DNA of 64,000 bases from Epilithonimonas arachidiradicis (GTDB lineage Bacteria; Bacteroidota; Bacteroidia; Flavobacteriales; Weeksellaceae), in NCBI RefSeq assembly GCF_003610695.1, contig NZ_RAQH01000013.1:1-64000 (forward strand), in the 5' to 3' direction. The notes beneath the pieces are model-generated. The model had not been told where the DNA came from, made no database searches, and was given only the letters and a program-made list of their open reading frames with translations. Shown piece after piece: positions 35,523 through 40,217 of this stretch. Each line of letters starts with the position of its first letter. Within the stretch, counting starts at the first letter, position 1. The position numbers and the translations under genes were made by a program.

Positions 35523-35545
35523 CTTTTGTGACTTTTGTGGTAAAA
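35523..35545 (+). repeat. TTTTGTGACTTTTGTGG repeat arm
   Basis: CTTTTGTGACTTTTGTGGTAAAA just before dinB is a single arm of the motif found as an inverted repeat at 46853-46905 and in 47184-47270 and 54669-54690. It overlaps the region where a dinB promoter would lie. Confidence 0.45.
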
Positions 35546-35560
35546 ATAATCGAACATCAG

Positions 35561-36649
35561 ATGCAACCGCAACGCAAAATCATCCATGTAGATATGGACG
35601 CTTTTTATGCTTCCGTGGAGCAACTCGACAATCCGGGTTTGCGAGGGAAAGCGATTGCTGTTGGCGGCGGACATCGTGGCGTGGTTGCAGCGGCAAGCTA
35701 TGAAGCGAGAAAATTCGGGGTGCGTTCTGCGATGCCCAGTAAAACGGCCAAAGAAAAATGTCCACATCTCATTTTTGTAAAGCCGAGATTCCAACGGTAT
35801 AAAGAAATCTCCAACAAAATCCGAAACATCTTCCACGAATACACGGATTTGGTTGAACCGCTTTCCTTGGACGAAGCCTATCTGGATGTTACCGAAAATA
35901 AAAAGGATATAGAATCCGCCAACGATATTGCCAGAGAAATCCGAAAACGCATTTTTGAAGAAACTGGATTAACCGCTTCTGCAGGGATTTCTGTCAACAA
36001 ATTTTTGGCAAAAGTCGCATCTGATATCAATAAACCGAACGGACAGAAAACCATTCACCCCACAAAAATTAATGAATTTTTGGAAAATCTCCCCATTGAG
36101 AAATTTTACGGTGTCGGAAAAGTGACTGCTAACAAAATGCATACACTCCACATTTTCAAAGGATCTGATTTGAAGGCTAAAACCCTAGAACAGCTTGAAG
36201 GTCTTTTCGGGAAATCCGGAAGGTATTATTACAATGTAGTTCGTGGCATCCACAACGGTGAAGTCAAACCTAACAGAATCCAAAAAAGTGTGGCCGTTGA
36301 AAGAACATTTTGGGATGACATCAATGAAGATGAAGAGATTGATGAAAAACTAAAATCCCTGAGCCAGGAACTGGAAGAACGTCTCGGAAGAAAAGAAATC
36401 CAAGGAAAAACCTTAATGCTTAAAATCAAATACAAAGATTTCTCACTCTATACGAGAAGCAAAACGCAGGAATTATATTTTGAAAATGCCGAAAAATTCT
36501 ATAAAACTGCAAAACAACTTTGGGAATTGAGGCCTTTTAACAAAGCCATTCGCTTGCTTGGATTATCACTTTCCAATCTTAATACAGAAGAAAAAAAACA
36601 GGTTTCTGTTCAGTTGAAAATTCCGTTTGAGGAGTTTGATAATGATTAA
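35561..36649 (+). CDS. dinB: DNA polymerase IV
   Basis: This Y-family polymerase copies past damaged bases. The ATG at 35561 (MQPQRKIIHVDMDAFY) is the right start; a GTG at 35528 is part of a repeat. The 362-aa protein has the catalytic DMDAFYASVEQ near residue 11, SLDEAYLDVT near 103, the helix-hairpin-helix thumb YGVGKVTANKM near 185 and a little-finger domain up to about 350. A canonical beta-clamp motif was not located with certainty. A 21-bp tandem array begins 3 bp after its stop. Confidence 0.95.
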   Translation: MQPQRKIIHVDMDAFYASVEQLDNPGLRGKAIAVGGGHRGVVAAASYEARKFGVRSAMPSKTAKEKCPHLIFVKPRFQRYKEISNKIRNIFHEYTDLVEPLSLDEAYLDVTENKKDIESANDIAREIRKRIFEETGLTASAGISVNKFLAKVASDINKPNGQKTIHPTKINEFLENLPIEKFYGVGKVTANKMHTLHIFKGSDLKAKTLEQLEGLFGKSGRYYYNVVRGIHNGEVKPNRIQKSVAVERTFWDDINEDEEIDEKLKSLSQELEERLGRKEIQGKTLMLKIKYKDFSLYTRSKTQELYFENAEKFYKTAKQLWELRPFNKAIRLLGLSLSNLNTEEKKQVSVQLKIPFEEFDND

Positions 36650-36652
36650 TTC

Positions 36653-36904
36653 GAGCGATTTATACTCACAATTGAGCCTTTTTGATTCTTCATCGAGTCT
36701 TTTATACTCATTTTTGAATCTTTTACACTCATCATCGAATCTTTTTGACTTGAAAACGAGCCTTTTTGATTCATCATTTAGTCTATTTGCCTAGAATTTA
36801 AGTTTTTTAGGTTGAAAAACCATCCTTTTTGCCCCGTTCTTGCACCTCTTAGCTTGGAAAACGAACCTTTTTGCATGGTTTTGATTCTTTTTAATTTCTC
36901 TTAA
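36653..36904. repeat. 12-unit 21-bp degenerate tandem array
   Basis: Twelve units of exactly 21 bp run without any indel, starting at 36653, 36674, 36695, 36716, 36737, 36758, 36779, 36800, 36821, 36842, 36863 and 36884. The shared core is GARYCTTTTTGAY, strongest in units 2, 5, 6, 9 and 11. Several units carry a GAAAAC tract half a unit away. The minus strand reads as 84 codons of heptads like DEESKRL, with one stop in unit 7. The plus strand reads as SLFDSSS-like heptads in the first half. It fills the 333-bp gap between dinB and the amylase gene. Confidence 0.85.
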
Positions 36905-36982
36905 GTGCTTCCAAAATTCCTTGGCTTGATATTTTCATAGAACGAAACATCAAATCAAACAATCTGAAAAATCTACAATCTT

Positions 36983-38452
36983 ATGAACGGGACTATGATT
37001 CAGTTTTTCCATTGGTACACCGATGGTGATTCTTTCCTTTGGAAACATACCAAAGATTCGGCGCAATATCTTTCAGACTTAGGAATCACGGCGGCTTGGC
37101 TACCTCCGGCTTACAAAAGCACGAACGGCGGCTACTCCGTTGGTTATGATGCTTACGATCTTTTTGACTTGGGAGAATTTGACCAAAAAGGAACGACTGT
37201 TACAAAATACGGTTCGAAGGAAGAATATCTGGATGCCATCAAATCTCTGAAAGAAAAAAACATCCAAGTCATCGTAGATGTCGTTTTGAATCACAAAGCT
37301 GGTGGCGATGAACTGGAGAAATTCAAAGTTATACAGGTGGATGAGGAAGACCGAAACAAAGACATCTCTGATGTGATGGAAATAGAATCTTACACCAAGT
37401 TCACGTTTCCTGGAAGAGGTGATACTTATTCTGACTTCAAATGGGATTTTAACTGTTTTACAGGTGTAGATTATGCGGAAGGTAAAGAAAAAGGCATTTT
37501 CCGTCTTATCCACGAACACGCCGATGGCTGGGATGATATTATTTCTGATGAGAAAGGAAATTATGATTTTCTGATGTACAATGATATCGAGCACCGTAAT
37601 CCTTTCGTCCGCGAAGAGCTGAATCATTGGGGAAAATGGTATTTTGACCAGACGGATTTCGATGGCGTGAGGCTGGATGCCGTGAAACATATTTCGCCAG
37701 ATTTTTATAAAGAATGGTTAACGCTTCTGCGTTCCAACTCCGGAAAAAATATTTTTGCCGTTGGAGAATATTGGGCGCCCGGAGAACTGCCTCTTTTGCA
37801 AGCTTATATAGATTCTACCGAGGGTTGTATGAGTTTATTTGATTCCTCCTTACAGCATAATTTGCATCAGGCTTCCAAAAATCCGGATTATGATTTGAGA
37901 GAAATTTTTAATGAAACGCTTGTCAGCTCTCATCCGGACAAAGCAGTAACCGTGGTTGACAATCACGACACACAGCCGCTTCAGGCTTTGGAAGCTCCGG
38001 TTGAGACTTGGTTCAAACCGATTGCTTATGCTTTGATTTTGTTAAGAAAAGATGGTTATCCTTGTGTTTTCTACCCCGATTTGTACGGCGCGAGCTACAA
38101 AGACCAAGGAAAAGATGGCAACGAATATGAAATCTTCCTCGACAAAGTGGATGCGATTGAAGAACTCATCCGAGCCAGAAAGGATTTTGCTTATGGTGAG
38201 CAAAGAGATTATTTTGATGATGCGCATTGCATTGGCTGGACTCGTGAAGGTGATGATGAACATCAAGGTTGTGCCGTTGTTTTGAGCAACAAGGATGTGA
38301 ATCAAAAATCTATGGAAATAGGAAAACGATACGCGGGAAAAACATTTTATGATTTCACCGGACATCTTGAGGATAAAATTACAATTGATGAAAATGGCTG
38401 GGCAGATTTTCCTTGTCCTGCGGGAAATGTGAGTGTTTGGGTAGCGGAGTGA
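36983..38452 (+). CDS. Cytoplasmic alpha-amylase (GH13)
   Basis: The 489-aa enzyme has no signal peptide and shows the GH13 conserved regions in order: DVVLNHKAGGDE near residue 98, GVRLDAVKHI near 231 (nucleophile Asp), VGEYWAPGE near 262 (acid/base Glu) and VVDNHDTQP near 327. A B-domain insertion lies between regions I and II, as in the Bacillus liquefying/E. coli AmyA type. It would hydrolyse internal alpha-1,4 links in the cytosol. It may pair with the exported GH13 enzyme at 40632. No -7 box is obvious in the repeat-filled upstream region. Confidence 0.92.
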   Translation: MNGTMIQFFHWYTDGDSFLWKHTKDSAQYLSDLGITAAWLPPAYKSTNGGYSVGYDAYDLFDLGEFDQKGTTVTKYGSKEEYLDAIKSLKEKNIQVIVDVVLNHKAGGDELEKFKVIQVDEEDRNKDISDVMEIESYTKFTFPGRGDTYSDFKWDFNCFTGVDYAEGKEKGIFRLIHEHADGWDDIISDEKGNYDFLMYNDIEHRNPFVREELNHWGKWYFDQTDFDGVRLDAVKHISPDFYKEWLTLLRSNSGKNIFAVGEYWAPGELPLLQAYIDSTEGCMSLFDSSLQHNLHQASKNPDYDLREIFNETLVSSHPDKAVTVVDNHDTQPLQALEAPVETWFKPIAYALILLRKDGYPCVFYPDLYGASYKDQGKDGNEYEIFLDKVDAIEELIRARKDFAYGEQRDYFDDAHCIGWTREGDDEHQGCAVVLSNKDVNQKSMEIGKRYAGKTFYDFTGHLEDKITIDENGWADFPCPAGNVSVWVAE

Positions 38453-39746: not shown

Positions 39747-40217
39747 TTAAACTTTCAACTGTCTGTTGATGCTTTGTTCCAGTGAAATAAAAGTTTCGGT
39801 TCTCGTAACGCCTTTCAATTTCTGGATCTTGTTAAGAATCTGCATCAGGTGATCATTATCCTTACAAAGGACTTTTAGAAATATCGTATAATTTCCTGTC
39901 GTGTAATGCGCCTCTACCACTTCATTCACCAGGTTAAGATTTTTGATGGCATCTTGATAATGGCTTGGTTGTTCCAGAAAAACACCAATATAAGAAACAA
40001 CTTTGTAACCTATTTTTCTTGGATTAAGGAAAGAAATAGAATTTTCTATAACGCCGGCCTGCTCTAGCTTTTTGATTCTCTGGTGAACTGCCGTTGTAGA
40101 AATCCCAACGTGCTTGGAAATATGTGCAAGGGAAGTTTTCGCATTGTCCATTAACATATAAATGATCTCTTTGTCAACTCCGTCTAGATGGTAACCTGTT
40201 TCAGATGCACTCTTCAT
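39747..40217 (-). CDS. Lrp/AsnC family transcriptional regulator
   Basis: From the ATG at 40217 (MKSASETGYHLDGVD) the protein is 156 aa. An N-terminal helix-turn-helix (AHISKHVGISTTAVHQRIKKLEQAGVI) is followed by a RAM ligand-binding domain (about 75-150; VVEAHYTTGNYTIFLKV). Such regulators respond to amino acids and usually control themselves. A long upstream spacer contains nested inverted repeats that could be its own operator. deoC follows but behind a terminator. Confidence 0.9.
   Translation of the reverse strand: MKSASETGYHLDGVDKEIIYMLMDNAKTSLAHISKHVGISTTAVHQRIKKLEQAGVIENSISFLNPRKIGYKVVSYIGVFLEQPSHYQDAIKNLNLVNEVVEAHYTTGNYTIFLKVLCKDNDHLMQILNKIQKLKGVTRTETFISLEQSINRQLKV

Follow-up and report, generated by a model that had tools for sequence, protein, structure and literature searches.

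A drifting 21-bp tandem array after dinB in Epilithonimonas arachidiradicis and arrays of like geometry behind genes of one protein family

An array of twelve 21-bp units follows the gene that we take to be dinB in Epilithonimonas arachidiradicis, and our analysis confirmed that this array is real. Arrays of the same geometry show a strong positional link to the genes of one protein family, here called X, and we give about an even chance to the reading that the array after dinB is a remote member of this gene-linked class of phased dyad arrays. Such arrays are probably platforms for cooperative protein binding, and together with the X family they point to an undescribed protein–DNA partnership; no earlier description of 21- or 22-bp arrays tied to the X family was found in the open-access PMC literature. 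What is unusual is that the geometry of the repeat is kept behind a gene family while its letters turn over, which suggests selection on the path of the DNA or on the spacing of bound proteins and not on any one sequence.

The array after dinB and its orthologous gaps

The window (the whole stretch of DNA analysed, 64,000 nucleotides long) is contig 13 of a 3.65-Mb genome. The array starts 3 bp after the dinB stop codon and ends 78 bp before a gene that is presumably alpha-amylase-like (Table 1), each unit consisting of a 15-bp A/T-centred dyad and a 6-bp spacer. Consistent with an earlier note on this DNA, twelve units tile the interval with no indel in the window copy, A4 tracts occur at half period, and the minus strand holds a KRL/KRF frame with a single stop. 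Freedom from indels is a property of this copy but not of the class, in which steps of 20 bp are found and the spacing breaks frame in 17 of 40 arrays of the type. Identity at lag 21 is 0.528, compared with a Markov-null mean of 0.305 (sd 0.035), and was reached by 0 of 2000 null sequences at any lag from 5 to 69; identity at lag 42 is higher still (0.605), a feature absent from the earlier note. Because the units have drifted, Tandem Repeats Finder, the check proposed there, recovers the array only in parts (36659-36784 as 42 x 3, 36690-36745 as 21 x 2.7 and 36700-36732 as 11 x 3.1). A CRISPR array was rejected, as the cores of window-type arrays drift and their spacers measure only 6 bp, unlike near-identical repeats with unique spacers.

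Table 1. Features of the window around the array (gene names are presumptive)
Feature	Position	Strand	Remark
dinB (presumed DNA polymerase IV) gene	35528..36649	+	start as in the ORF list
21-bp array, 12 units	36653..36904	.	T-rich strand is +
GATTCnTTTTAnTTT block, promoter-proximal end of array	36883..36897	+	in 9/22 orthologous gaps including the window
GGCTTGATATTTTCATAG block upstream of amylase	36923..36940	+	GGCTTGATATTTTC or a one-base variant in 22/22 orthologous gaps
presumed alpha-amylase-like gene downstream of array	36983..38452	+	

No X gene was found within the 64-kb window or in 80 related loci around the amylase. A gene for an Lrp/AsnC-type regulator lies about 3 kb from the array (39747-40211, minus strand); it was considered as the partner of the array and set aside, no tie between the two having been found. 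A putative resemblance of the array core to Fis-like and Lrp-like sites was likewise set aside.

Twenty-three Epilithonimonas genomes, assigned through amylase orthologues in named genomes, were examined for the same gap, which is bounded by both genes in 17 and by the amylase alone in five; the amylase side was not found in G016. E. caeni has an orthologous array of about 11 units, in E. mollis about two units remain, as judged by eye, and neither inspection nor best lag gave an array in the remaining orthologous gaps. In many gaps of the genus (for example L018, L020, L016 and L009) the place of the array is taken by a dispersed GC-rich element (GCGCGCCCCGGCTTGAGCGG...GGGAGCGGAAGACGGATAAAGGCGCCC, with variants). 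The block upstream of the amylase, as GGCTTGATATTTTC or one of three one-base variants, occurs in 22 of 22 orthologous gaps, array or no array, whereas GATTCnTTTTAnTTT occurs in nine, and the array is therefore dispensable for the amylase's own upstream region. The GGCTTGATATTTTCATAG block is perhaps an alternative-sigma-factor promoter. When 1.64 Mb (the window and the 80 amylase loci) was screened at lags 12 to 60, 16 stretches exceeded the threshold, of which inspection by eye left just two of this kind, the window array and the orthologue in E. caeni.

The comparison with E. caeni bears on the suggestion of the earlier note that phase may be under selection. The two arrays differ by a 22-bp gap, that is, one unit plus 1 bp, and over the whole dinB–amylase gap we counted 79 substitutions and four gap openings (1, 2, 22 and 3 bp), compared with 458 substitutions and 24 gap openings in ten other intergenic regions of the same two genomes (one region skipped). 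Indels are therefore not rarer in the dinB–amylase gap, and this single pair neither proves nor excludes selection on phase. Support for a constraint on phase comes instead from the class, in which core spacing is maintained across arrays and a period of 21 or 22 bp across the phylum, even between arrays with unrelated units.

Arrays elsewhere and their link to X genes

A search for further arrays, which the earlier note had proposed, was productive: the window's genome holds at least three of the window type, the one after dinB among them, and two of a 22-bp type. Model R1 (sequence only, three units, built on alignment A2) matched in at least 10 of the 23 genus genomes at E 0.01 and, at E 1e-4 with stricter filters, in at least 22 of 197 family genomes representing at least five of 33 genera; in an order-wide draw of 296 genomes at least 10 had matches, and all matches listed fall in the same family. 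Scoring was limited to the best 150, 28 and 19 candidates of each genome in the genus, family and order-wide searches, respectively, so that an R1 non-match is not proof that an array is absent.

Forty window-type arrays were fetched from 22 genomes, and their 296 units give an A-rich-strand consensus of SAGYCWAAAAGRCTS followed by about RWYNNY. The skeleton is A1 (0.96), C4 (0.62), an A-rich stretch at positions 6-9, A9 (0.97), G10 (0.89) and T13 (0.98), with most information in A1, A9, G10 and T13. Measured without restriction over the 40 regions, 222 core-to-core distances fell at 21 (160), 42 (23), 41 (21), 63 (5), 62 (4), 20 (2) and 43 bp (1), with six others; steps of 21, 42 or 41 bp thus make up 204 of the 222, and apart from a few cases the cores are spaced by 21 bp or by 1 bp less. 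Dyad symmetry belongs to the consensus and not to paired positions within single units. Measured against within-array shuffles, no positive covariation was seen at pairs 0-14, 2-12, 3-11 and 4-10 (z -1.4, -1.9, 1.6 and -0.8), pair 1-13 covaries weakly (z 2.3), and the central pairs 5-9 and 6-8 go in the opposite direction (z -3.5 and -7.3).

In the genus, arrays occupy five orthologous sites, A to E, where A is the dinB–amylase gap, B lies behind an X gene and C lies between genes that are presumably gldF-like and gldG-like (Pfam ABC-2 and ABC_transp_aux). Outside the genus they are found at site B again, beside polA (Pfam DNA_pol_A) and at further sites. In the genus set a given site always turns the same strand towards the genes, but which strand this is varies from site to site. 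An X gene adjoins 13 of the 40 arrays, with the array always on its 3' side; for the other 27, the stretch that was fetched contains no X. Sharing a genome makes arrays just slightly more similar (p 0.053 and 0.027), and concerted evolution within genomes was set aside on this weak signal; in genus g20, arrays at the same site are alike to a similar degree (p 0.013). A second palindrome, GTCTGAATTCAGAC, adjoins site-B array ends in three genomes (L179, L182 and L180), and near another site-B array (L226) a Y1_Tnp (IS200-like) protein is encoded at 1122-1766 on the minus strand.

In the window's own genome, an array at C1:691574-691721 lies about 30 bp behind the gene for a 158-aa protein X. 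No Pfam family matches this protein above cut-off (the DFF-C match, at E 1.4e-4, falls below it), NCBIfam gave no match (two proteins tried, one of them partial), and no PDB match is convincing (best E 0.019). X matches no DNA-binding, Rep or Par family and no Pfam toxin family above cut-off, and neither a transposase domain nor a Y1_Tnp Pfam match was present in 18 X proteins scanned. Across 72 proteins the family is mostly acidic (median pI 5.2, net charge -3), with only the tail mildly basic. Profile A3, at a cut-off of E 1e-8, found X in 30 of 395 Bacteroidota genomes, covering 21 of 170 genera and 12 families, some of them outside the window's class, and its subfamilies are homologous and form one family (hhalign 99.2 and 99.6%). 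Within the genus, close X is patchy (10 of 23 genomes and one fragment). No relative of X was confirmed in IMG/VR scans or a phage search. Plasmid searches returned one record, Candidatus Thiodictyon syntrophicum plasmid pTs417 (L336), which lies outside Bacteroidota and encodes an X relative of 33-38% identity with no 21-bp array behind its gene; with no viral relative confirmed in these searches and this single plasmid record, the array was rejected as a virus or plasmid element.

The positional link is clearest in the flanks of the X genes themselves, which we tested over 450 bp at lags 12-35 against 100 Markov shuffles each (p<0.01). The downstream flank was significant in 47 of 74 distinct X members, with the period at 21 bp in 37, at 22 bp in nine and at 15 bp in one, so that 46 of 74 carry a significant 21- or 22-bp array. 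Upstream flanks were significant in seven of 76 members, three of them at 21 or 22 bp. Among 600 control ORFs, which were drawn from 1252 in the 80 amylase loci and are neither genome-matched nor free of spurious ORFs, three were significant at 21 or 22 bp, an odds ratio of about 327 for X versus controls. With no significance filter, the best lag was 21 or 22 in 55 of 74 downstream flanks, 14 of 76 upstream flanks and 78 of 600 controls. Twenty-eight of the 74 members, distant ones among them, have no significant 21- or 22-bp array downstream. One genome (G743) has five X copies (L295, L318, L319, L320 and L321), of which L319 alone is followed within 450 bp by a significant 21-bp array.

Between X subfamilies the unit sequences look unrelated while the period stays at 21 or 22 bp. 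Of 47 X-adjacent arrays, a set that includes that of L283, an X member with an internal stop, 28 have a dyad-symmetric consensus unit at p<0.05 and 15 at p<0.01; in the X-adjacent array of the window's genome (L253) the symmetry is not significant (p 0.31). The 22-bp period is confined to two X subfamilies, and a tree of 72 X proteins, in which 11 rows bear the 22-bp label, requires three changes of this label, compared with 10.0 when shuffled, a count as low being reached in 0 of 500 shuffles, although near-copies in the tree favour a low count. In four genomes (L267-L270) the first eight steps of the X-adjacent 22-bp arrays run 22, 21, 22, 22, 21, 22, 22, 21 in identical order.

Genomes with close X also tend to be those with arrays. 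Among the 197 family genomes, detected window-type arrays and close X occur together in 14, arrays alone in eight (G006, G041, G107, G127, G141, G143, G154 and G173), X alone in six and neither in 169 (Fisher p 1e-11; here, as in the other co-occurrence tests, phylogeny is ignored). The six of 20 genomes with close X and no detected window-type array are G003 (a fragment), G007, G024, G033, G168 and G182, and downstream of X in G003, G024 and G033 there are 21-bp arrays of other sequence. In G003, a fragment of about 70 aa (L263) is followed by a 21-bp array of very different and far more uniform units (lag identity 0.87). Remote arrays follow the same pattern: X is present in 11 of 19 genomes with remote detected arrays versus nine of 178 others (p 3e-8), counting as remote the array of G025, where X genes stand at contig ends and the array could adjoin one. 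In the genus alone, X is present in seven of eight genomes with remote arrays versus four of 15 without, the fragment being counted (p 0.009).

The 22-bp type provides a replicate. Model R2, built for this type and run on the 23 genus genomes, matched in 10, with remote arrays in nine; such arrays occur in five of six genus genomes with the cognate X subfamily versus four of 17 without (p 0.018). Each of the 13 remote 22-bp loci fetched is significant at a lag of 21 or 22 bp where the model matched (two lags tried, 500 shuffles, p at most 0.008), the strongest lag is 21 or 22 in nine of the 13 when lags 12-35 are left free, and none of the 13 contains an X gene. Two of the 22-bp arrays (L345 and L346, on contigs C3 and C10) belong to the window's own genome, where the cognate X subfamily was not found, and they are possibly left over after loss of the X gene.

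Competing explanations

Among the alternatives considered, the decay of a heptad-repeat protein, suggested in the earlier note, is not supported by the larger set. In the heptad Lys slot AAA occurs 239 times, AAG three times and AAT plus AAC 10 times, spacing breaks the frame in the 17 arrays mentioned above, and a start codon lies upstream in the heptad frame in only three of 23 frame-intact arrays. Coding is favoured by the absence of a stop from the heptad frame in 13 of those 23 and by an Arg slot filled mostly by AGA or AGG (132 and 105); heptad coding on either strand was nonetheless rejected on the codon pattern, frame breaks and missing starts, and the window array is a non-coding DNA element. 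The same note had expected that phased tracts bend the DNA. In an intrinsic curvature element, A/T tracts would do so with no cognate protein, for example upstream of the amylase promoter. This explanation is favoured by the A/T power of the window array at 10.5 bp (16.2, compared with a shuffle mean of 1.1 and reached by 0 of 300 shuffles) and by a strongest rhythm of 10.3-10.6 bp in 12 of the 17 arrays tested, which are those of the genus set less two short ones. The 10.5-bp peak is missing in the other five, all of which have 20-bp steps and peak at 20.1-20.6 bp. With provisional wedge parameters, the predicted bend is above at least 97% of shuffles in nine of the 17 arrays, leaving eight not clearly bent, and the window array is at 94%. 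As the upstream block of the amylase is kept in gaps most of which have no array, and curvature leaves the X link unexplained, we consider this explanation quite improbable.

A purely neutral minisatellite, in which slippage or unequal exchange multiplies a 21-bp unit in the absence of selection, would account for the orthologous gaps, where an array is mostly not seen, by eye only about two units are found in E. mollis, and the E. caeni copy shows a one-unit change of length and an ordinary indel ratio. We regard it as unlikely overall, since the same consensus occurs at many unrelated sites in five genera, the period of 21 or 22 bp is kept though unit sequences are unrelated, and 46 of 74 X members, versus three of 600 controls, are followed by an array. 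An RNA element, with the units serving as hairpins or terminators within 3' untranslated RNA, likewise has little chance. Array RNA as a whole is more stable than shuffled RNA (mean z -4.0 and -3.5 on the two strands of 40 arrays, with z below -2 in 28 and 31 of the 40), and the two leading units of the site-B array in G133 make up a long perfect hairpin with T's after it. The window array, however, folds about like its shuffles (z -1.7 and -0.1) and contains no terminator-like site, eight loci gave no Rfam match at gathering score, the strand turned towards the genes varies with the site, and a hairpin per unit was rejected, as dyad covariation is confined to the weak signal at pair 1-13. A mobile or selfish element of REPIN type, spread with help of X or of a Y1 transposase, would fit the presence of an array beside the X gene and same-type arrays elsewhere in the genome, the patchiness of close X in the genus and the Y1_Tnp gene near one site-B array (L226). 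That gene was noticed at one locus only and the scanned X proteins have no transposase domain, making this the least probable of these explanations, and by our estimate a very improbable one.

The reading that we prefer, in which the window array is a remote member of the X-linked class, can be put in terms of protein binding. Each dyad would bind one dimer, and spacing of two helical turns would place all dimers on one face of the DNA, permitting cooperative binding, bending or bridging. X itself may be the binding protein, marking its own gene with an array, or a partner may bind, a possibility that arises from the average acidity of X. The array after dinB and other remote ones would then act as secondary sites, disseminated by local copying and retained for as long as a cognate protein is there. 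More broadly, and tentatively, at a little under even chances, we propose a phylum-wide protein–DNA system in which a family of ~160-aa proteins has its own two-turn dyad array behind the gene, with specificity that changes between lineages, a fixed 21- or 22-bp geometry and further arrays elsewhere, acting as a self-marking organiser of the nucleoid or of boundaries, or as a selfish element. If X binds its own array, each lineage is a natural specificity variant, and one family with its arrays would allow direct tests of selection on phase, of shifts in recognition and of how intergenic repeats spread; a protein family with no assigned function would also gain a possible one, and drifting intergenic repeats in Bacteroidota a new explanation.

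Comparison with known repeat systems

Among known systems, the window array works most like a cooperative multi-site protein target; it fails the defining tests of REPIN–RAYT and the other testable gene-linked families. With 12 units of 21 bp it agrees in unit number and length with the definition of a bacterial minisatellite (at least four tandem units of 10-200 nt), which further demands internal regularity. Minisatellites of Leptospira interrogans are described as tandem repeats of 10-200 nt in four or more units, some families being dispersed intergenically (Subirana and Messeguer 2019, PMC6749651), and the likeness to bacterial minisatellites so described is in unit length and dispersed intergenic sites. 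Unlike minisatellites, the arrays described here are fixed at two helical turns across the phylum, have unrelated sequences and are tied to one gene family.

Gene-linked systems offer other parallels. Repeated sites lie beside the gene of the protein that binds them in both iteron–Rep and ParB–parS systems, and iterons are of similar length; the repeats beside the X gene resemble this arrangement, in which binding by X would be the counterpart, but an iteron–Rep origin is plasmid-borne with an adjacent replication initiator, whereas X has no Rep or Par match and plasmid searches gave one record. Type III toxin–antitoxin systems (ToxIN) also pair a repeat array with a protein of about 160 aa encoded beside it, the RNA antitoxin repeats standing upstream of the toxin gene; here the array is instead 3' of the X gene, has about 21 nt per unit, and X has no Pfam toxin match above cut-off. 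In REPIN–RAYT systems a chromosomal gene for a Y1 transposase, the RAYT, is flanked by palindromic repeats, and repeats of the same type are dispersed between genes. The distribution of arrays resembles this, with an X gene flanked by dyad repeats and same-type arrays dispersed, but unlike RAYTs, X proteins (18 scanned with Pfam) have no Y1 (HUH) transposase domain, and unlike REPINs, which are singlets or inverted doublets, the units run head to tail, and inverted pairs are confined to one end of some arrays. Such a pair is formed at site B by the first two units in L210, where a long perfect hairpin followed by T's resembles a bidirectional terminator, and by eye also in L218 and L224.
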